Assembly: GCA_035546535.1 (NCBI GenBank)
Contig: DASZWQ010000050.1
Span: forward strand, 124,001 to 188,000
Origin: Pirellulales bacterium
GTDB lineage: Bacteria; Planctomycetota; Planctomycetia; Pirellulales; JACPPG01
Direction: 5' to 3'
Length of the DNA: 64,000 bases
Positions 1 through 10,501 of the stretch are shown here, piece by piece; position 1 is the first letter of the stretch; every line of letters starts with the position of its first letter. The notes under the pieces were generated by a model. That model was not told the origin of the DNA. It saw only the letters and a program-made list of their open reading frames with translations, and made no database searches. The position numbers and the translations under genes are program-made.

Positions 1-2
1 AG

Positions 3-830
3 AAGCAGGACTCGTCCGCCTCGGCCCGCAAACGTGTCCAGGCAGCCCAGGAAAAAATGGAAGCGGCCCGACAAAAGCTGGAAAAAGCCCAGCGTGAAGG
101 GGCCACCGAAGAGCAAGAAGCCGCGATTCGCGAGCTGGAGCAAGCCAAGGCCGAGCTGGAAGAGATCCTCCGTCAGCTCCGCGAAGAAGAACTGGAACGG
201 ATGCTGGCCATGCTCGAAGGGCGCTTCCGTAAAATGCTGCAGGCCCAGGTCGAGGTTTACGAAGGAACCAAGCGCGTCGACCAGACGCCGCCAGCGGAAC
301 GCGATCGCGACGACGAAATCGAGGCCGGTCGCTTGAGCCGTAAGGAATCGCAAATCGTGCTCGAAGCCGAAGGCGCCCTGGCCATCTTGCGTGAGGACGG
401 TTCGGCCGTGGCCTTCCCCGAGGCAGTCGAGCAGATGCGCGAAGACATGGAGCTGATCGTCGGGCGACTCGCCAAGGGAGACGTCGGCGACCTCACCCAG
501 GGCATCGAGGAAGACGTGATCGCGGCGCTGGAGGAGACGATCGAATCGCTGCAAAAGGCCCAGCAGGACATGGAAAAGCAGAAGCAGCAACAGGCGCAGG
601 AGGGTGAGCCGCAGGAGCCGCCGCTGATCGACGGCCTGGCCGAGTTGAAAATGATCCGTTCGCTGCAAATGCGCATCAACCTGCGCACCAAGCGGCTGTC
701 GCGGTTGGTCGAAGGCGAGGTTGGCCAGGCCGACAAGCCCGAGTTGCTCGAACAACTCGAGCGCCTCGCCGAGCGCGAAGAAAGCGTGTTCCGCGTCACG
801 CGCGACATCGTTACAGGGAAGAACAAATGA
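3..830 (+). CDS. Coiled-coil protein, 5' end outside the window
   Basis: The frame is open from base 3 and stops at 830, so the gene begins upstream of the window; about 275 residues are visible. Most of the N-terminal third is Glu/Lys/Gln/Arg-rich with long helical heptads, predicting an extended coiled coil; a second Gln/Lys-rich helix lies near codons 180-200. I see no catalytic motif and no membrane segment in the visible part. The stop overlaps the next start in an ATGA arrangement (827-830), which implies translational coupling with the secreted protein downstream. It is therefore part of the envelope operon running to 8354. Function unknown; a structural or scaffolding role is inference from the coiled coil only. 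Confidence 0.8.
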   Translation, partial: KQDSSASARKRVQAAQEKMEAARQKLEKAQREGATEEQEAAIRELEQAKAELEEILRQLREEELERMLAMLEGRFRKMLQAQVEVYEGTKRVDQTPPAERDRDDEIEAGRLSRKESQIVLEAEGALAILREDGSAVAFPEAVEQMREDMELIVGRLAKGDVGDLTQGIEEDVIAALEETIESLQKAQQDMEKQKQQQAQEGEPQEPPLIDGLAELKMIRSLQMRINLRTKRLSRLVEGEVGQADKPELLEQLERLAEREESVFRVTRDIVTGKNK

Positions 831-1870
831 AGCGACGTGCAATATTGACACTGCTGCTGCTTGTGGTTGCGCGCGGTGCTGCACGCGCCGACTCGCACCC
901 CGACGCGCTTGGCCAGATTCCCGTGATCAAGGCCGCGACCAACGACGAGGTGCAGAAGCGCGCGCTGGCCTACCTGACCGAGCGCCAGGCGGCGCCGGAG
1001 GTCAACACGGCGGCCGCGGCGATTTGGGCCGGCGACACGAGCGCCGCGACGGCGCTCGATCGGCTCGTGGCCACGATCGCCCTGGTTGAACCGCGGGCCA
1101 AGGCGCTTTTGGAACTCTGCGCTCATCAGCGCGAAGCGCGGGCCCTGGCCGCCCAGGATTGGCTCACGGCCGACGACACGCCCGCCTGGGTGCGCAACAA
1201 TCTCCGCTTGTATTACGGGCGCTGGTTGTCGCAGCAACGACTCTACGACGAATCGCTCGAGCAACTGGCCGGACTCGAACCAACGGACGTCGTCGATCCC
1301 GCCGCACTCTTGTTCTATCAGAGCGTGGCGCATCATCGTCTGCTGAACAAAACTGATGGGCTGCGTACGATCGACCGGCTTTTGAGTCAGGTTGTCGAAG
1401 GGCCCTCGCGCTATGTGACCGTGGCTGGGTTGATGCGCGAAGACCTCAAGGGGCTCGAAGATGATTCGCTCGATCACATCGCGCGGCGCATGGACGACAT
1501 TCGTCGGCGGCTGGATTTGGGCCGAGCGGGCGAAAAAGTGCGCAAAGAAGAAGACGGCGTCATCGCCTCGCTCGACAAACTCATCGAAGAGATGGAAAAA
1601 CAGCAGCAGCAACAACAGCAAAAGAACGCCGGCGGCGGCACCGCTCCCCCGTCCCAGCCCATGCCCGACAGCCGCATCGCCGCGGCCAAGGGACCTGGCG
1701 AAGTCGATCGCAAGAAGCTCGGCAACACGGCCGGGTGGGGCGACCTGCCGGCCAAGGAACGTGAAGAGGCCCTACAGCAGATCGGCAAGGATTTTCCCTC
1801 GCATTATCGAGATGTTATCGAGCAATACTTCAAGAAGCTGGCCACCGAAAAGGAACCGTCTGGTAAGTAG
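827..1870 (+). CDS. Secreted protein with poly-Gln tract, function unknown
   Basis: 347 residues starting MKRRAILTLLLLVV, a clear Sec signal peptide ending near ARGAARA. The body is alpha-helical and Ala/Leu-rich. A run of seven Gln codons occurs near 1601-1622 after a charged helix, and a conserved-looking C-terminal segment ending FPSHYRDVIEQYFKKLA follows a low-complexity linker. I recall similar C-terminal segments in planctomycete proteins, but I cannot name a family. The start codon overlaps the upstream stop (ATGA), and the next gene follows after 68 bases. The protein probably acts outside the cytoplasmic membrane. No catalytic residues are recognisable. Confidence 0.8.
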   Translation: MKRRAILTLLLLVVARGAARADSHPDALGQIPVIKAATNDEVQKRALAYLTERQAAPEVNTAAAAIWAGDTSAATALDRLVATIALVEPRAKALLELCAHQREARALAAQDWLTADDTPAWVRNNLRLYYGRWLSQQRLYDESLEQLAGLEPTDVVDPAALLFYQSVAHHRLLNKTDGLRTIDRLLSQVVEGPSRYVTVAGLMREDLKGLEDDSLDHIARRMDDIRRRLDLGRAGEKVRKEEDGVIASLDKLIEEMEKQQQQQQQKNAGGGTAPPSQPMPDSRIAAAKGPGEVDRKKLGNTAGWGDLPAKEREEALQQIGKDFPSHYRDVIEQYFKKLATEKEPSGK

Positions 1871-1938: not shown

Positions 1939-3123
1939 GTGGATTTTTTGATCGTAACAGTGTTGTTGATGGCATCGCCCGGCGTCCAAGTGCAGACGCT
2001 GGCCGGCGGCTCGATCGAGGGGCGCATCACCGCGCTCATGGACGAGTCATTGACCGTTACGACCGACGCGGGCGAACAATCGCTGGCCCTCAAGAACGTG
2101 CAGTCGATCACTGTCGCGGCGCCCACTTCCGCACTCCCCGTCCCCGCGATACGGATCAAATTGGTCGACGAATCGCTGATCGTCGGCACTTCGTTCACCG
2201 TCAGCGGCGCCGAGGCTCACGTCATTCAAGCAGGCGGCACGGAGTTGCTGGTGCCGACGCGGCTGATCGAAAGCGTGCGGCTTCGCGAGCCGACAGGTCC
2301 CGCCGCGGCTCAATGGGATGAAATCGCGGCCGCCGAGCGCAGCGGCGATTTGCTCGTGACGCGCAAGAACGACGCTCTCGACTTTTTTACGGGCGTAATC
2401 CACGACGTAACGCATGAGGCCGTGAATTTCGAGCTCGACGGCGAGGCCTTAAAGGTCAAGCGGGCCAAGGTCGAGGGACTGCTCTATCACGAGGCGGGCG
2501 ACGCGCAACTGGCGCCGTCGCGCGGCGTCGTCAGCGACGCTGCCGGCTCGCAATTCCACGTCGCGCGGCTGAAAGTCGAAGGGGACCAGCTGCAAGTGCG
2601 GACGGCGGCTGGCCTGGAAGTCGCCTTCGCGCTGGATCGGCTTGCTCGCATCGATTTCGCCCAGGGCAACCTGCAATACCTGGGCGAGCTCAAACCTGAG
2701 TCGGCCGTTTGGACCCCCTACTTCGGCGATCCCAATTCCTCGCCCGCCACACGCGCCTTTTTCCAGCCGCACTTCGATCGGTCGATGGATGGCGGCCCCC
2801 TGCAACTGGGCGGCAAAGAATTCACCAAGGGTATCGCCGCGCACAGCCGCACCGAACTGGTCTATCGCTTGCCTGACAAGTTCCGCTCGTTTCAGGCACT
2901 TGTGGGCATCGACGATCGGTTGCGGCCCGGCGGTAACGTGCGTCTGACAATACTTGGCGACGATCGCACGCTCTTCGAGGACACTATTACGGGCAAGGAC
3001 GAGCCACGTTCGCTGGACGTCGACATCACCGGGGTAAACCGCTTGAAGCTTCTGGTCGATTTCGGCGAAATGACCGACGTGGGGGACGCGCTCGATTTCT
3101 GCGAAGCTAGGATTTTGAAATGA
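1939..3123 (+). CDS. Secreted NPCBM/NEW2-domain protein
   Basis: 394 residues with a GTG start at 1939 preceded by GAAGGA. A short hydrophobic N-terminus (MDFLIVTVLLMASPG) serves as signal peptide. Residues of roughly 25-240 form beta-rich repeats of unknown type. Residues of about 255-394 match the NPCBM (novel putative carbohydrate-binding module) pattern: a Gly-rich LGGKEFTKGIAAHSRTEL segment, then VGIDD, and a terminal strand with the DFCEARI ending. NPCBM domains are frequent in secreted planctomycete proteins and are thought to bind carbohydrate; binding here is inferred. The last codon overlaps the start of the serine protease gene (ATGA at 3120-3123), tying the two genes together. Confidence 0.85.
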   Translation: MDFLIVTVLLMASPGVQVQTLAGGSIEGRITALMDESLTVTTDAGEQSLALKNVQSITVAAPTSALPVPAIRIKLVDESLIVGTSFTVSGAEAHVIQAGGTELLVPTRLIESVRLREPTGPAAAQWDEIAAAERSGDLLVTRKNDALDFFTGVIHDVTHEAVNFELDGEALKVKRAKVEGLLYHEAGDAQLAPSRGVVSDAAGSQFHVARLKVEGDQLQVRTAAGLEVAFALDRLARIDFAQGNLQYLGELKPESAVWTPYFGDPNSSPATRAFFQPHFDRSMDGGPLQLGGKEFTKGIAAHSRTELVYRLPDKFRSFQALVGIDDRLRPGGNVRLTILGDDRTLFEDTITGKDEPRSLDVDITGVNRLKLLVDFGEMTDVGDALDFCEARILK

Positions 3124-4970
3124 GATTTGCGTGCGCTGTAACTCTGCTGCTGATGACTTTCCCTGCGCTCGCGCGCGCCGATGTCGATGAGGGCGTGCTG
3201 CGCGCCGAGGCCGAGCGGGTGGCCGTGGTCGCCAAGGCACAAACGGCCGCCGTGGCCATTTTCGCCGCTGACGGCCAAGGGGGCGGTTCGGGTGTTGTTA
3301 TCTCGCACGACGGCTACGCGCTGTCGAATTTCCATGTCACCAAGGGGTCGGGCGACGCCATGAAATGCGGCATGGCCGACGGCCGCCTGTACGACGCCGT
3401 GATCGTCGGCATCGATCCCGTGGGGGACGTGGCGCTCGTCAAGCTGCTCGGCCGCGATGATTTCCCCCACGCCGAGTTGGGCGATAGCGACCAGGTTCAA
3501 GTCGGCGATTGGGCCTTTGCGATCGGCAATCCCTTCCTGTTGGCCAATGACTTCACCCCGTCGGTCAGCTACGGCATCATCTCCGGCGTGCATCGTTATC
3601 AATATCCGGCGGGCACGCTATTGGAATACACCGACTGCCTGCAGACCGACGCGTCGATCAATCCTGGCAACTCGGGCGGTCCCTTGTTCGACAGCCGTGG
3701 ACAACTGATCGGCATCAACGGCCGCGGCAGCTTCGAGAAGCGCGGCCGCGTGAACGTCGGCGTCGGTTACGCGATCTCGATCAACCAGATCAAGAACTTT
3801 CTCGGCCATCTGAAGGCCGGGCGCATCGTCGATCACGCCACGCTCGGCGCCCGCGTCTCGACGCGGCCCGATGGCACCGTGGCGGTCGCCGATATTTTGG
3901 AAGACTCCGACGCCTTTCGCCGTGGCCTACGTTACGGAGACGAGGTCGCCCGTTTCGGCGGCCGCGCGATTCGCACCGTCAACGCGTTCAAGAACGTACT
4001 GGGCATCTTCCCCAAGGACTGGCGCGTGCCGCTGACGTATCGTCGCGAGGGAAAGACCTACGATGTGGCGGTCCGCCTGGAAGGTTTGCACAGCCCCGAG
4101 GAATTGATCTCGAAGGTGCAGGGGCGCGTGCCTTCACCGGAAAAGCCGACACCCGACCAACCAAAAGGTCGGCCGATTCCCAAGCCCGGCGAGCAACCGC
4201 CCGACGATGGGCCGGATGATCAACCGCGGCGGCCGCAGCGGGGCCACGCGCGCACGCCTCCCATGCCTGACGAAGTCAAGGCGTTGTTCGAGGCGCGACG
4301 CGGTTTTGCCAATTTCTACTTCAATAAGGTCGAACGCGCGCGGACCTGGAGCCGGGCCGTGGCTCGCGGTGATTTCCACGAGCAACTGGGCGAATGGACG
4401 CTGACCGGCGAGCTGGCCGGCGGTGGCGAAGCGCAGTTCGTCCTGTCTGAGAACCTGGTGGCTTGCACCATGCCGGGCGGCCATCTGGCTGTGCCCGTCG
4501 CCAACGACCTGGCGAACATCACCGACCCGCCGCGCAGTGGCGGCATGTTGGCCGCGCTGCATTTATGGCGCCGCCTGTTGGTGCTTGGGCCCGATCGTTT
4601 CGGCGATGTTCAATACCTGGGCACCGTCCCCTTGGTGACGAGCCAGGACCTGGTCGATCGCCGCGCGATCATGCTGTTGGGGCGCACCCGGGAAGCCGCC
4701 GCGACCGGCGTTCCGGCGCTGTGCGACTGCCTGGTCGGAACGTACGGTGGCGTCGAATGCCGGTTCATTTTCGATCCGAAGAGCGGCAACCTGGCCGCGC
4801 TCGAGATGTTCCGCGCGCCGGACGACGATCCGTGCGAACTGTACTTCACCGACTATGCCGAGATCGAGGGGCGCGTCTTCCCGCGGCAGATCGAATGCCG
4901 CTACGGCGACGAGACGTACGCCAGCGTCAAATTGCTCACCGTCAAGTTAAACAAACTGGGAGACCGCTAA
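3120..4970 (+). CDS. HtrA-like trypsin-fold serine protease, intact triad
   Basis: 616 residues with signal peptide MRFACAVTLLLMTFPALARA. The S1C (HtrA/Deg) protease domain spans about residues 35-235: His72 in SNFHVTKG, Asp103 in DPVGDVALVKL and Ser185 in INPGNSGGPLF, so the triad looks intact. A PDZ-like domain follows at about 240-325, then a Pro-rich charged linker (about 335-385). A C-terminal beta-rich domain of some 230 residues is unknown to me. It probably cleaves or surveys envelope proteins. Its start overlaps the NPCBM gene stop, and the next gene starts three bases after this stop. That neighbour and the one after it are paralogues of the protease domain without catalytic residues. 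Confidence 0.88.
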   Translation: MRFACAVTLLLMTFPALARADVDEGVLRAEAERVAVVAKAQTAAVAIFAADGQGGGSGVVISHDGYALSNFHVTKGSGDAMKCGMADGRLYDAVIVGIDPVGDVALVKLLGRDDFPHAELGDSDQVQVGDWAFAIGNPFLLANDFTPSVSYGIISGVHRYQYPAGTLLEYTDCLQTDASINPGNSGGPLFDSRGQLIGINGRGSFEKRGRVNVGVGYAISINQIKNFLGHLKAGRIVDHATLGARVSTRPDGTVAVADILEDSDAFRRGLRYGDEVARFGGRAIRTVNAFKNVLGIFPKDWRVPLTYRREGKTYDVAVRLEGLHSPEELISKVQGRVPSPEKPTPDQPKGRPIPKPGEQPPDDGPDDQPRRPQRGHARTPPMPDEVKALFEARRGFANFYFNKVERARTWSRAVARGDFHEQLGEWTLTGELAGGGEAQFVLSENLVACTMPGGHLAVPVANDLANITDPPRSGGMLAALHLWRRLLVLGPDRFGDVQYLGTVPLVTSQDLVDRRAIMLLGRTREAAATGVPALCDCLVGTYGGVECRFIFDPKSGNLAALEMFRAPDDDPCELYFTDYAEIEGRVFPRQIECRYGDETYASVKLLTVKLNKLGDR

Positions 4971-4972
4971 GC

Positions 4973-6022
4973 GTGGGCCAGGTTCGTCCCATCTGTCGTT
5001 TGCTGCCGGCGCTTTGGCTGCTGGCCATCTGTTGCTGCGCGATTGTGATGGCGCGCGCTGAAGAGCCGCGCGCCGCGGGCCTGATCGAAACGATTCGTAC
5101 GATCGAGCCGAAGATCGCCAAAATCTACGGCGCCGGCGGCTTCCAGGGGCTCGAGGCCTATCAAAGCGGCATCCTCATCTCCGCCGAAGGGCACATTCTG
5201 ACCGTGTGGAGCTATGTGCTCGACACCGACGAGATCCAGGCCACGCTCTCCGATGGCCGGCGGTTCAAGGCTGCGGTCCTCGGCGCCGATCCGCGTCTGG
5301 AACTGGCCGTGCTGAAGATCGAAGCCGCCGGGCTACCGCATTTCGAGCTGGCGGCCGCCGCCGCGGCCGAGCCGGGCACGCGCGTGCTGGCCTTCAGCAA
5401 TCTGTTCGGCATCGCCACGGGCGACGAACAAGCGAGCGTCCTGCACGGCATCGTGGCCGGCAAACCACGACTGGAAGCGCGCCGCGGCGTTTTCGAGACG
5501 ACCTACAAGGGGCCCGTTTACGTCGTCGATGCGATGGCGAACAACCCCGGCGCCGCCGGGGGCGCCTTGACCGATTACGACGGGCGGCTGTTGGGCATGC
5601 TCGGCAAGGAGCTGCGCAATTCGCTCTCGAACACCTGGCTTAACTACGCCATTCCGATCGATCAAATGACCGCAACGATCGACGAAATTCGCTCGGGTAA
5701 ATTCGTGCGCAAGCCGGCCGACGAGCCCAATCAAAAACCGCAAAAGGCGGTTACGCTCGACCTGTTGGGCCTGATCATGGTACCCGACGTTCTGGAGCGC
5801 ACGCCCCCCTTTATCGACGCGGTACGGTCGGGCTCGCCCGCCGCCGCCGCGGGCTTGCGCCCGGATGACCTGGTGCTGTTCGTCAACGATCGGCTGGTGC
5901 AGTCGTGCAAGGCGCTCGGCAACGAGCTCTCGTTCGTCGACCGCATCGACACCGTCAAGCTGACGATCATTCGCGATCAAGAGCTGGTCGAAGTGAAATT
6001 AACCGCCCCGAGCGAGCCCTGA
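4973..6022 (+). CDS. Trypsin-fold pseudoprotease with PDZ domain
   Basis: I chose the GTG at 4973 (Shine-Dalgarno GGGAGA at about 4958) because it gives a signal peptide, MGQVRPICRLLPALWLLAIC; the same frame stays open upstream inside the preceding gene. The 349-residue product aligns with HtrA proteases, but the triad is gone: the ILTNNHVV His position is Ser80 (ILTVWSYV), the DLAVLKI Asp is Glu110 (ELAVLKI), and the NPGNSGGPL Ser is Ala195 (NPGAAGGAL). A PDZ domain covers about residues 258-345. Fold motifs are kept while every catalytic residue is changed, so a regulatory or substrate-binding role is likelier than decay. It directly follows the active protease. Confidence 0.85.
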   Translation: MGQVRPICRLLPALWLLAICCCAIVMARAEEPRAAGLIETIRTIEPKIAKIYGAGGFQGLEAYQSGILISAEGHILTVWSYVLDTDEIQATLSDGRRFKAAVLGADPRLELAVLKIEAAGLPHFELAAAAAAEPGTRVLAFSNLFGIATGDEQASVLHGIVAGKPRLEARRGVFETTYKGPVYVVDAMANNPGAAGGALTDYDGRLLGMLGKELRNSLSNTWLNYAIPIDQMTATIDEIRSGKFVRKPADEPNQKPQKAVTLDLLGLIMVPDVLERTPPFIDAVRSGSPAAAAGLRPDDLVLFVNDRLVQSCKALGNELSFVDRIDTVKLTIIRDQELVEVKLTAPSEP

Positions 6023-6034
6023 ATCGGGCCAGCC

Positions 6035-8029
6035 ATGAGACGACACACGCTATTGTCGATGCCAATCCTCGTGCGCACGCTCGCTAGCGCCTGCGCGCTC
6101 GCTATCGGCTGGGCGGCGCCGCTACGGGCCGACGAGCAACTTTCGCAGTTGGAGCAGGCAGCCATCCAGGCCGCCGCGGCGCGCGTCGCTCCGTCGGTCG
6201 TCAGGATCGAAACCGTGGGGGGACTGGAGCGAATCGGCAATCTGCTGCTCAATACCGGTCCGACGACGGGCCTGGTGGTCTCGCCGGAGGGGCACATCAT
6301 TTCGAGCGCCTTTAACTTCATCGCGCGCCCCAGCTCGATCCTGGTGACTCTGCCCGATGGTACGCGCACGCCGGCAAAGCTCGTGGCGAACGATCGACAG
6401 CGAATGCTGGTGCTCTTGAAAATCGACGTCGAGGAAAAGCTGCCTGTTGCCGAGGCGGTGCCCGAAGGCGAGATGCGGGTGGGCCAATGGGCCATCGCGC
6501 TGGGGCGCACGCTGGACACGGCGCAGCCGAACCTTTCGGTCGGGATCGTCAGCGGTTTGAACCGCATCTGGGGCACCGCGCTGCAGACGGATGCGAAAAT
6601 TTCTCCCAGTAACTACGGCGGACCGCTCGTCGACATTCGCGGCCGGGTGTTCGGGGTGCTCGCCCCCCTCTCGCCCGAGAGCCACGAAGATGTTGCTGGC
6701 GTGGAATGGTACGACTCGGGCATCGGGTTCGCCGTTCCGCTGGCTCATATCTACAAGGTTCTGCCGCGGCTCAGCGAAGGGCACGATCTGAAGCCGGGTA
6801 TCCTGGGCGTGAGCTTGAACGGCCGCGACATTTACACCAAACCGGCCACGATCGTCGCCTGTCGCCCGAACTCCCCCGCCTATAAGGCGGGCTTGAAGCC
6901 GGGAGACAAAATCATCGAGATCGACGGTCGCCCCGTAGAACGCCAGGCGCAACTGCGCGAGCGCATGAATCGCCATTATGCGGGCGATTCGCTGAAGGTC
7001 GTCGTATTGCGCGGCGAAGAACGGGTGGAGCGCGACATCACGCTGGTCGACACGCTCGAGCCCTATGGCCGGCCCTTCCTGGGTCTTTTGCCGCTGCGCG
7101 ACGCGCCGGTGTCCGCCGGCGGCGTGCCGATCCGGTATGTCTATCCCGACAGCCCGGCTGCGAAAGCGGGCCTGCAGGCGGGGGACGTGCTCGTTTCCCT
7201 CGACGATCATCCCACGGCGACGCGCGAGGCGCTGGTTGAGCATACGGCCGCTCTTGAAATCGGCACGGTCGCGAAGATCGTCGCGCGGCGCGGGGCCGAG
7301 ACGCTGTCGCTCGATGTGACGCCGGTGGCCGAGCCGACGACGATTCCGGCGACGCTTCCGCCGGCGCGCGAGGCGGACGGACCGGCTGCCGAGGCCGGCG
7401 AGGGACGACCGCAGGTCGGTTCCTTTGCGGTGAAGCTCGCCGAGCACAAGAACGAATGCTCGGCCTATGTGCCCGAAAGCTACGACGCGCACACTTCGTA
7501 CGGCCTCGTAGTCTGGCTGCACCCGCCCGGAGGCACGAAGTACGAAGACCTTTTGGGCCGCTGGCGCGAGGCGTGCGATGCGCAGAAGCTGATCCTGCTG
7601 GCGCCGCGCGCGGCTGATCCGGCCCGCTGGATGCCGCCCGAAGTCGAATTTATCGCCAAGGCCATTGCCCAGATTCGCGAGCAGTACAACATCGACCCGC
7701 AACGCATCGTCGTTCACGGCCAGCAGGCGGGCGGATCACTGGCCTACATGGTGGCGCTATTGCATCGCAACGTGGTGCGCGGCGTGGCGGCGATCGACGC
7801 TCCCTTCATGGGGCGCAGCCCCGATAATGATCCGACCATGCGGCTGACCATTCTCACCACGACGGCGAAGAAGGCCAATTTCGCCGAACAGATCGCGGCC
7901 GGCATCGAGCAATTCCGCAAGCTGAAGTACACCGTGACGGTCGTCGACCAGGGCGAAACAGCCCGCAATCTGGATGCGAACGAATTCGCCGAGCTGGTGC
8001 GGTGGATTGATTCGCTGGACAAGTTCTGA
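6035..8029 (+). CDS. Pseudoprotease with two PDZ domains and degenerate alpha/beta-hydrolase domain
   Basis: 664 residues with a signal peptide ending near PLRADE. The trypsin-like domain (about 40-255) has Phe93 at the His position (IISSAFNFI), Met124 at the Asp position (MLVLLKI) and Tyr194 at the Ser position (SPSNYGGPL). Two PDZ domains follow (about 258-345 and 348-435), then an alpha/beta-hydrolase-like domain (about 465-664) resembling PHB-depolymerase or feruloyl-esterase folds. Its nucleophile elbow reads GQQAGG at 562-567 where GxSxG is expected, so Gln564 replaces Ser. Both enzyme domains therefore look non-catalytic. It lies 12 bases after the preceding pseudoprotease and is probably co-transcribed with it. 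Confidence 0.85.
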   Translation: MRRHTLLSMPILVRTLASACALAIGWAAPLRADEQLSQLEQAAIQAAAARVAPSVVRIETVGGLERIGNLLLNTGPTTGLVVSPEGHIISSAFNFIARPSSILVTLPDGTRTPAKLVANDRQRMLVLLKIDVEEKLPVAEAVPEGEMRVGQWAIALGRTLDTAQPNLSVGIVSGLNRIWGTALQTDAKISPSNYGGPLVDIRGRVFGVLAPLSPESHEDVAGVEWYDSGIGFAVPLAHIYKVLPRLSEGHDLKPGILGVSLNGRDIYTKPATIVACRPNSPAYKAGLKPGDKIIEIDGRPVERQAQLRERMNRHYAGDSLKVVVLRGEERVERDITLVDTLEPYGRPFLGLLPLRDAPVSAGGVPIRYVYPDSPAAKAGLQAGDVLVSLDDHPTATREALVEHTAALEIGTVAKIVARRGAETLSLDVTPVAEPTTIPATLPPAREADGPAAEAGEGRPQVGSFAVKLAEHKNECSAYVPESYDAHTSYGLVVWLHPPGGTKYEDLLGRWREACDAQKLILLAPRAADPARWMPPEVEFIAKAIAQIREQYNIDPQRIVVHGQQAGGSLAYMVALLHRNVVRGVAAIDAPFMGRSPDNDPTMRLTILTTTAKKANFAEQIAAGIEQFRKLKYTVTVVDQGETARNLDANEFAELVRWIDSLDKF

Positions 8030-8036
8030 GGCGGGA

Positions 8037-8354
8037 ATGCATCGCCCCACGGTCGGCATTCTTGCCTTGCTACTGCTCGCGGTCGGTGGCGTCGCGGTCT
8101 TGACGCCCGCCGGCCAACTGGCGCGGCCGGAGCTGGGCGCGGCGTGCCTGCGCATCGGCTTGATCTTGGGCGTGCTCTGGTTGGCTTTGCCGGATATAGC
8201 TCGCCCGGTGAACCGCTGGATTGCGCTGGGAGTGATCGCCGCCGTGATCCTGATCGCCCGGCAGCCAAAACTGGCCATTCTGGCCGCGGTGTTCCTGGTG
8301 GCGATCGCGATCTTACGGCCGCGGGTTAAGTCGTACGTCGCGCGAGGTAAATGA
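8037..8354 (+). CDS. Small hydrophobic membrane protein
   Basis: 105 residues from an ATG at 8037, seven bases after the preceding stop and preceded by GAGGCGGGA. Nearly the whole chain is hydrophobic, with three to four predicted membrane segments (about residues 5-25, 38-58, 62-78 and 80-95) and a short basic C-terminus (RPRVKSYVARGK). No family is recognised. As last gene of the envelope operon it could anchor or assist the proteases and pseudoproteases encoded upstream; that is inference from position alone. A palindromic repeat follows immediately and may end transcription of the operon. Confidence 0.7.
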   Translation: MHRPTVGILALLLLAVGGVAVLTPAGQLARPELGAACLRIGLILGVLWLALPDIARPVNRWIALGVIAAVILIARQPKLAILAAVFLVAIAILRPRVKSYVARGK

Positions 8355-8494: not shown

Positions 8495-10501
8495 CTACGC
8501 CCCGGCGGCGTCGAGATAAGGATCCTGGCCCAAGTGCTCGTGCATCTTGCGCCGTTCCTTTTCGTAGTACATGAGCACGCGGCGATCGCGAAAGTGCCTG
8601 CGCTCGATGCGCCGCTGGGCCTTGGGGAACAGCGACGCGTAGCTGTCCAGGCCCGTCGCCTGTTTCTCACCGAGTTCTTTCAACTGCTTCGAGCGTTTGG
8701 GGCCCAGGCCGGCGAGCAGAATATCGTCGTCCAGCCCCAGGTACTGCCGCCAGGTGCCGGGATCACCTTGCCGTCCGCAGCGGCCCAGCAATTGGCGGTC
8801 GATGCGGGCCGAATCGTGCATTTCGGTGCAGATGACGTGCAGGCCGCCAAGCTCCGCGACGCCGGGACCGAGCTTGATGTCCGTGCCGCGGCCAGCCATG
8901 TTCGTCGATACGGTCACTTTGCCAAGTTCGCCCGCGTGGGAAATTATCTCGGCCTCTTCGGCGATCTTGTTGGCGTTCAAGATGGCGTGCGGAATGCCGA
9001 CAACCTTGAGCATCTGCGACAAGATCTCGGATTTATCGATCGAGCGCGTGCCGATCAGGATCGGCCTTCCCGTGGCGTGTACCTGCATGACTTCTTCGAC
9101 GATCGCCTGCCATTTGGCGTCGGCGGTGCCGAACGTGGCGACGGGCAGCTTCTCGCGGATGGCTGGCCGATTCGTGGGAATCGGCACCACGCGCAGCTTG
9201 TAGATCCGGCTCAGCTCGCGCGCGGAGCTGCTGCCGGTGCCCGTCATGCCGGCCATGCGCGGATAACGGAGAAAGAAGTCTTGCACCGTGATGCGGGCCG
9301 CCTGGCCCGTGGCCACGGTAACTTCGACTTTCTCCTTCGCTTCGACGGCCTGGTGAATGCCGGCGCGCCATTTGCGCCCTTCGGCCAGTCGTCCCGTGAA
9401 TTCGTCGACAATAACGATTTCGCCTTTGTGCACGACGTAATGGCGGTCGCGCGTGTAGACGCGGTCGACCTTGATGGCCCGCTCGATGAATTCGTACATC
9501 GTGAACAGGCCGACCGAGTCGAGCGCGGCTGGCTTGGGGATGGTGCGAACGAGTTGCCGGCCGGCCGCGTTCAATTCCACGGATTGCTTGTCGTGATCGA
9601 ACTCGTAGTGCTCATCTTCCTTGAATTGTGCGACGGCGTCGGCGCTCCAGCGATGGCACTCGGCGGCGATCAATTCTTCTTCGGTCGGCAGGGCGCTAAT
9701 AATCAGCGGGGTGCGTGCCTCGTCGATCAGGATGCTGTCCGCCTCGTCGACCAGCACGAAATGCGACGCCCGCTGCACCGGCTCGTCACCGCCGGCGGCA
9801 TAATGCCCCAGCATGCCGCCGACCACGTCGGTCATGCCCTCGGCCACGCGGCGCAGAAGCAATCGATCGCGCAAAAAGTCGAAACCAAACTCCTTGCTCG
9901 TGCCGTACGTGACGTCGCAGGCATAGGCCTCGCGTCGGGCCGGAGTTTGCATCGGCGTTTCGATGACCCCCACCGAAATGCCCAGTGCCTGGTACAAGGG
10001 GCGCATCCAGTCGGCGTCGCGGCGAGCCAGGTAATCGTTGACCGTAGCCAGGTGGGCCCCCTTGCCGGCCAATGACTCGAGGTACATGCACAGCGTAGCC
10101 GTCAGCGTTTTGCCCTCGCCCGTCTGCATTTCCGCGATCGAGCGATTGTGCATGGCGATGCCGCCCAGCAACTGCACGTCGAAGTGCCGCATGTTGAGCG
10201 TCCTCCGGCCAGCCTCGCGAACCAGGGCAAAAGCCTCGGGGAGCAAATGCCCAAGAGGCTCGCGGCTACGTGCCCGATACTTGAGCGACAGGCTCCGCTT
10301 GCGCAGTTCCCCGTCGGAGAGCTCCATCAACTCGGGTTCCATGGCCCCGATGACCGGAATGAGCTTAGACCACTGCGCGAGGCGCATGCGGTTTGTGCCG
10401 CCCAGCGTAGCCAGGAATCGCGCCGACAGACTGGTGGGGAGAGAGGTCAAGAGCCTGGGTTCCGACGTGCGTAAAACGTGCGGCGGCCCAGACGGCCGCA
10501 C
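8495..10501 (-). CDS. secA: SecA-like preprotein translocase ATPase, short form
   Basis: 668 residues from a GTG start at 10501; an internal Met at residue 39 is an alternative, but the intervening residues look like a conserved SecA N-terminus. Nucleotide-binding motifs are intact: EMQTGEGKT (Walker A), VDEADSILIDEARTPLIIS, SSRELSRIY in the intermediate region and TNMAGRGTDIKLGPG near the C-terminal half. Typical SecA proteins have about 800-900 residues. This one ends shortly after the KAQRRIERRHFRDRR segment that begins the helical scaffold, so it lacks most of that scaffold, the helical wing and the zinc-binding tail. It may be an accessory SecA paralogue (SecA2-like) with a full-length copy elsewhere. 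A weak -10 (TATGAT, minus strand, 10523-10528) lies just upstream. Confidence 0.87.
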   Translation of the reverse strand: MRPSGPPHVLRTSEPRLLTSLPTSLSARFLATLGGTNRMRLAQWSKLIPVIGAMEPELMELSDGELRKRSLSLKYRARSREPLGHLLPEAFALVREAGRRTLNMRHFDVQLLGGIAMHNRSIAEMQTGEGKTLTATLCMYLESLAGKGAHLATVNDYLARRDADWMRPLYQALGISVGVIETPMQTPARREAYACDVTYGTSKEFGFDFLRDRLLLRRVAEGMTDVVGGMLGHYAAGGDEPVQRASHFVLVDEADSILIDEARTPLIISALPTEEELIAAECHRWSADAVAQFKEDEHYEFDHDKQSVELNAAGRQLVRTIPKPAALDSVGLFTMYEFIERAIKVDRVYTRDRHYVVHKGEIVIVDEFTGRLAEGRKWRAGIHQAVEAKEKVEVTVATGQAARITVQDFFLRYPRMAGMTGTGSSSARELSRIYKLRVVPIPTNRPAIREKLPVATFGTADAKWQAIVEEVMQVHATGRPILIGTRSIDKSEILSQMLKVVGIPHAILNANKIAEEAEIISHAGELGKVTVSTNMAGRGTDIKLGPGVAELGGLHVICTEMHDSARIDRQLLGRCGRQGDPGTWRQYLGLDDDILLAGLGPKRSKQLKELGEKQATGLDSYASLFPKAQRRIERRHFRDRRVLMYYEKERRKMHEHLGQDPYLDAAGA

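Follow-up and report, generated by a model that had tools for sequence, protein, structure and literature searches.

An active HtrA protease encoded together with two conserved HtrA pseudoproteases in Planctomycetota

A 64,000-nt stretch of a Pirellulales bacterium genome (contig DASZWQ010000050.1, positions 124,001 to 188,000; hereafter the window, whose positions are used throughout) encodes three consecutive HtrA-type proteins, which we call P1, P2, and P3. P1 retains the catalytic triad, and P2 and P3, judged by their sequences, are HtrA-derived pseudoproteases and not proteases. The same set, in the same gene order, is found across the order Pirellulales, in other orders of the class Planctomycetia, and in other classes of the phylum Planctomycetota.

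Triad loss and fold retention in P2 and P3

The three genes and their domains are arranged as follows.

3120..4970, plus strand: P1, active-type HtrA protease (triad His72-Asp103-Ser185) with one PDZ domain (Trypsin_2 5e-32, PDZ_2)
4323..4967, plus strand: predicted LolA/LolB-fold domain at the P1 C-terminus, residues about 402-616 (AlphaFold2 model, structure comparison)
4973..6022, plus strand: P2, predicted HtrA pseudoprotease (Ser80-Glu110-Ala195) with one PDZ domain (Trypsin_2, PDZ_2, alignment)
5555..5557, plus strand: P2 Ala195 codon, at the catalytic Ser position (structure-chain alignment, conservation)
6035..8029, plus strand: P3, predicted HtrA pseudoprotease (Phe93-Met124-Tyr194) with two PDZ domains and a C-terminal pseudo-esterase (Trypsin_2, alignment, model)
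6614..6616, plus strand: P3 Tyr194 codon, at the catalytic Ser position (alignment, conservation)
7373..8026, plus strand: predicted P3 alpha/beta-hydrolase domain, a relative of PHB depolymerases and feruloyl esterases (NCBIfam NF050058, PDB profile matches)
7724..7726, plus strand: P3 Gln564 codon, at the nucleophile position of GxSxG, which reads GQQAG (no Ser in 65 order loci)

Alignment to DegP/DegQ chains, which we used to set the triad positions, bears out the three open reading frames and the triad substitutions given in a first-pass annotation of this DNA: H72, D103, and S185 are intact in P1, and the corresponding residues are S80, E110, and A195 in P2 and F93, M124, and Y194 in P3. 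All three proteins match Pfam Trypsin_2 (5e-32, 2e-20, and 3e-20, respectively). P1 combines the trypsin fold, His-Asp-Ser triad, and PDZ domain of the HtrA/Deg family. For P2 (349 aa, with a GTG start at 4973, 2 nt past the P1 stop), the trypsin-plus-PDZ architecture is assigned from sequence only, with Trypsin_2 and PDZ_2 both above cut-off. The AlphaFold2 model of P3 (mean predicted local distance difference test score, pLDDT, 91.1) shows a trypsin double barrel plus PDZ, with Z 27.8 to DegQ (4ynn) over 364 residues (residues 38-429). An intact triad was not found in P2 or P3 from the order, other orders, or other classes.

The same annotation had described all three as trypsin-fold proteins with kept fold motifs. 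The trypsin folds are there, as are GGPL, LLKI, and QTD in P3, but P2 reads GGAL, VLKI, and VDA instead, and the PDZ and LolA-like domains of P1 and the two PDZ domains and hydrolase of P3 had been missed.

Among the Trypsin_2 relatives in the same genome, only P2 and P3 were seen to lack the Ser; all others with a readable triad region retain it, together with a His motif. The two lie side by side behind P1, and together this argues that their loss reflects more than chance. In another genome, which lacks P1, P2, and P3, a further HtrA relative with a degenerate Gln-Asp-Asn triad was observed (L318, G021:C1:2628867-2629697).

Conservation of gene order and substitutions across the phylum

We searched 147 genomes of the order and fetched 80 loci, mostly one per genus. 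Relatives of P2 are present in 134 and of P3 in 125 of these genomes. Adjacent, co-oriented pairs were counted in the 80 loci for P1-P2 (78), P2-P3 (78), and the NPCBM-domain gene directly before P1 (71), the shortfall being mostly contig ends or fusions; the separation of P2 and P3 in genome G125, for example, is only apparent, as the contig breaks at the P2 end. Most P1-P2 and P2-P3 junctions are overlapping frames or gaps of at most 60 nt, and gaps above 200 nt occur once and three times, respectively.

The P1 triad is complete in all sequences that span it, whether from the order, other orders, or other classes. Within the order, the His, Asp, and Ser of the triad are most often replaced in P2 by Ser (76/79 sequences), Glu (62/79), and Ala (64/79), respectively. 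In P3 from the order, the catalytic Ser is replaced by Tyr in 79/80 sequences and the His by Phe or Tyr in 70/80. Overall, P2 lacks the His in 99/99 and the Ser in 96/99 sequences, and P3 carries the Tyr in 100/101, where its column ranks 17th in conservation among 644. Neither P2 nor P3 has a fixed residue at the Asp position. A sequencing artefact is ruled out, since about 80 genera and named GTDB assemblies share the triad substitutions.

By alignment search, P3 is present in 148 of the 199 class genomes examined, the order included. Among loci from other orders, 18/20 carry P1-P2-P3 in order with the same upstream genes, and all 21 P3 sequences, including one from a second-copy locus, have the Tyr. 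None of the P2 sequences from these orders has a His at the triad position, which is Asn, Thr, Gly, or Ala in place of Ser. Triad-intact P1 and P3-like genes are present in 19/20 loci fetched from other classes, 18 of the 19 with an SPxNYGG-type Tyr. Gene order and triad loss in relatives had been proposed beforehand as a check, and both are conserved: the order NPCBM-P1-P2-P3, usually with two further genes (UP2 and UP1) upstream, is shared by about 80 Pirellulales genera and extends to other orders and other classes. In a phylum-wide draw, 42/246 genomes matched at a strict threshold, suggesting that the set is widespread but not universal. Some genomes hold a second, more diverged P1-P2-P3 copy with a short P3 (L078 in G012, L094 in G029, and L235 in G049, the last with P1 and P2 fused).

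Single origins and purifying selection

In a tree of 107 trypsin-PDZ sequences, built by a quick method after removal of the three catalytic columns and containing several long end branches, P1, P2, and P3 each fall on one side of a branch with 100% support in the Shimodaira-Hasegawa-like approximate likelihood ratio test (SH-aLRT). Each being a single clade, the sequences indicate that each triad was lost once, early and not repeatedly, and stayed lost under purifying selection. Genus-level ratios of nonsynonymous to synonymous substitution (dN/dS, NG86 method) are 0.12-0.21 for P1, 0.13-0.21 for P2, and 0.12-0.26 for P3; dS is near or above 1, close to saturation, which makes these values rough. 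The values for P2 and P3 are about as low as for the active P1. All frames are intact in the congeners checked, and those of P2 and P3 are intact elsewhere with rare exceptions. The suggestion that the fold has been selected without catalysis thus holds up on single clades, low dN/dS, and intact frames, and the signs of decay that would have spoken against it (random sequences or frequent frameshifts in relatives) were looked for and not seen.

P1-P2 fusions and joint absence

A single reading frame encodes P1 and P2 as a fusion in four genomes belonging to the same genus (L130, L232, L233, and L234), where the P2 signal peptide is gone and the P2 core directly follows the P1 LolA-like domain. 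Fusions also occur in L235, L350, L355, and L359, from four other families; here the P1 profile match spans its protease-PDZ part. At least two origins of the fusion can safely be counted, and up to five are possible. Conversely, the P1-specific C-terminal domain, P2, and P3 are missing together from 14 genomes in four families (f7, f18, f21, and f25), with positive controls run. Synteny and fusions together point to a functional linkage of the three proteins.

Additional domains of P1 and P3

The C-terminal domain of P1 (AlphaFold2 pLDDT 88.5) resembles LolA-like 3bk5 (VIA Z 12.3, root-mean-square deviation 4.2, 179 residues) and LolB 8cm1 (VIA Z 10.7), and more weakly RseB and MucB (VIA Z 5-6, RseB about 6). 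Foldseek places it in the LolA/LolB superfamily (E 1.3e-5), and DUF4292 is matched in 5/44 relatives. By its model, the P1 C-terminus has the half-barrel fold of this superfamily and would probably bind a lipid, lipoprotein, or other hydrophobic ligand.

The C-terminal domain of P3 (protein residues 447-664) matches NCBIfam NF050058 in 28/28 members, at scores below the curated cut-offs, and profile matches in the PDB include LC-Est1C (2e-13) and a feruloyl esterase (8e-11). Since the PDB comparison of the full P3 model reaches only to residue ~429, the hydrolase fold rests on sequence profiles, by which the domain belongs to the PHB depolymerase/feruloyl esterase group of alpha/beta-hydrolases. 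No Ser nucleophile is present in the GxSxG of 65 order loci, the residue being Gln, Glu, Gly, Lys, or another; a single Ser (L206) was seen in a partly overlapping set of about 79. Whereas the Tyr of the trypsin domain is near-invariant, the residue at this nucleophile position varies freely. With both the trypsin triad and the GxSxG nucleophile lost, P3 is predicted to be a double pseudoenzyme.

Neighbouring genes and the upstream MoxR cluster

Five plus-strand genes lie in tandem (827-1870, 1939-3123, 3120-4970, 4973-6022, and 6035-8029), neighbours overlapping or lying a few to about 70 nt apart. The genes flanking P1-P2-P3 in the window are listed below.

1..830, plus strand: UP2, 3' part, a coiled-coil, charged, repeat-rich protein; frame traced upstream of the window (L229, from 18439), same place in most relatives
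827..1870, plus strand: UP1, 347 aa, conserved, fold unassigned; 5' of the NPCBM gene in most loci
1939..3123, plus strand: predicted secreted protein with a C-terminal NPCBM domain (residues 267-392; Pfam PF08305, E 5.7e-31); directly before P1 in 71 loci
8037..8354, plus strand: small membrane protein, probable start ATG 8037 (longest open reading frame from 7974); counterpart in this position in a minority of loci

UP2, whose gene starts upstream of the window, overlaps UP1 by 4 nt. For the small membrane protein, ATG 8037 is a more likely start than 7974. The first-pass annotation had bounded the unit by the NPCBM gene upstream and the small membrane protein downstream. The former assignment stands, whereas the latter gene is recognisable only in a minority of loci, and the continuation of the operon upstream of the window had been overlooked. 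A SecA-like gene (8495-10501, minus strand; 668 aa, short for SecA) is convergent to the operon, and several relatives (L069, L102, L107, L112, and L120) have one in the same position.

Just upstream of the window, the same genome encodes a PQQ-like repeat protein, a squalene-cyclase-like protein, MoxR (AAA_3), DUF58, BatA, VWA, and a large membrane protein, followed by UP2, UP1, NPCBM, P1, P2, and P3 (L229, G000:C50:104500-124400). Pfam AAA_3, DUF58, BatA, and VWA_2 matches identify MoxR (AAA+), DUF58, BatA, and VWA genes in tandem. Of the 14 upstream stretches fetched, nine contain the cluster, starting from the PQQ-like protein or from MoxR, and a tenth contains its 3' part; the run of genes from PQQ-like to NPCBM precedes P1-P2-P3 in distant Pirellulales families. 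In the other four (L240, L246, L248, and L249), no such cluster was found in the fetched stretch, yet P1-P2-P3 are still together, suggesting that P1-P2-P3 is a module of its own, attached in most cases to the MoxR cluster. A role in the same envelope pathway as P1-P2-P3 is probable for the NPCBM protein and the MoxR-DUF58-BatA-VWA genes.

Discussion

HtrA proteins form trimers and cages. We consider it fairly probable that P1, P2, and P3 work as one hetero-oligomeric protease of the envelope, either as its subunits or as obligate partners, with P1 catalytic and the two pseudoproteases regulatory. P1 would supply the sole catalytic site and carry the LolA/LolB-fold domain. P2 and P3, keeping the HtrA fold and PDZ domains and predicted to be unable to cut, would most likely join P1 in hetero-oligomers or dock on it, bind substrate or ligand, and set its activity. 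Such an association is suggested by the P1-P2 fusions and joint absence, and fusion to P1 in several lineages suggests that P2 may be a near-stoichiometric regulator. P3 could serve as a recognition arm through its two PDZ domains and non-catalytic esterase-fold domain, and its invariant Tyr probably fills the oxyanion/S1 region, fixing the domain in one state.

The closest known analogue appears to be the MamE/MamO pair, in which the dead HtrA MamO is required for proteolysis by the active MamE (PMC4794232). Both systems place an active HtrA and a dead paralogue in one gene cluster. Unlike that pair, the planctomycete set has two dead paralogues with other substitutions, no magnetosome cluster, a LolA-like domain in P1, and a dead hydrolase domain in P3, where MamO has a TauE-like transporter; it is also spread through a phylum and not confined to magnetotactic species. 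Membership of the MamE/MamO families is ruled out by NCBIfam scores of 29-122 bits against a cut-off of 800. DegP, DegQ, and DegS share the trypsin-plus-PDZ architecture common to P1, P2, and P3, but the triad is absent from P2 and P3, and the LolA-like and hydrolase C-termini of P1 and P3 are foreign to them. In envelope stress sensing by DegS-RseB and AlgW-MucB, an HtrA protease works with a LolA-fold partner. P1 would hold both in one chain; however, no RseA-like partner or sigma-factor gene was identified, and the P1 domain is nearer to LolA/LolB than to RseB. ClpP/ClpR-type rings keep inactive paralogues with active subunits, a likeness by analogy only, as these are of unrelated fold, cytosolic or plastid, and ATP-driven.

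To our knowledge, no assembly of mixed active and inactive HtrA proteins has been described. Our literature search on planctomycete HtrA operons, planctomycete MoxR-linked proteases, and HtrA pseudoproteases found only MamE/MamO. A PDZ survey describes an expansion in planctomycetes and, by term search, makes no mention of "inactive" or "catalytic" (PMC6411480).

Several observations weigh against a regulated hetero-oligomer. Synteny and fusion show functional linkage, not that P2 and P3 regulate P1 catalysis, and no physical interaction was detected between MamE and MamO (PMC4794232). The residues replacing the P2 triad drift in distant lineages, suggesting that the dead site itself is unconstrained there. 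The hydrolase domain is missing from P3 in several families (about 15 fetched order loci), and this arm is thus dispensable. Finally, one genome (G159; L363, G159:C196:9000-18005) has UP2-UP1-NPCBM-P2, with Thr-Gln-Phe at the P2 triad positions, without P1 or P3 nearby.

That last locus would suit a different arrangement, in which P2 and P3 act beside P1 as periplasmic binding or holdase proteins, capturing client peptides, lipids, or polymers via PDZ and dead hydrolase folds, and P1 is a separate enzyme of the same pathway. HtrA proteins can act as chaperones, and such a capacity fits the two PDZ domains and retained, non-catalytic esterase fold of P3. The MamO protease domain, repurposed to bind metal, offers a precedent (PMC4794232). 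P1-P2 fusions in several families and joint absence point instead to work on or with P1, and we regard this arrangement as rather unlikely, while still giving it appreciable weight. Much less probable is that P2 and P3 remain enzymes with a different set of catalytic residues. The Ser at the P2 His position (76/79 in the order) and the near-invariant P3 Tyr could hint at this, but in P2 from other orders the former is replaced by Asn, Thr, Gly, or Ala, neither protein holds its Asp position constant, and no alternative triad is evident; a catalytic use of P2 Ser80, which is not kept outside the order, is unlikely. We give almost no credence to P2 and P3 being decaying duplicates on the way to loss. 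Both triads are lost and the whole set is absent from some families, but that absence is mostly together with P1, and simple decay is refuted by single ancient origins, frames intact across the phylum, a Tyr conserved at 99%, and low dN/dS.

Returning to the hetero-oligomeric protease, a more specific version, which we put forward tentatively and with less confidence than the core proposal, would be a planctomycete heteromeric HtrA machine that acts on the envelope in concert with a MoxR/VWA AAA+ system. Its catalytic subunit, P1, would have a LolA/RseB-like lipid sensor built in, and its two pseudoprotease subunits, one of them a double pseudoenzyme, would be ancient and obligate. Most reports of pseudoproteases concern isolated cases restricted to one lineage. 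In Planctomycetota, one live and two dead HtrA paralogues appear to have been kept as a fixed set since early in the history of the phylum, with Tyr at the old nucleophile position in 99% of P3 sequences. The set would make it possible to ask, in a natural system, how HtrA subunits without catalysis control proteolysis, and it may open a way into the envelope biology of planctomycetes, whose quality control is poorly known.

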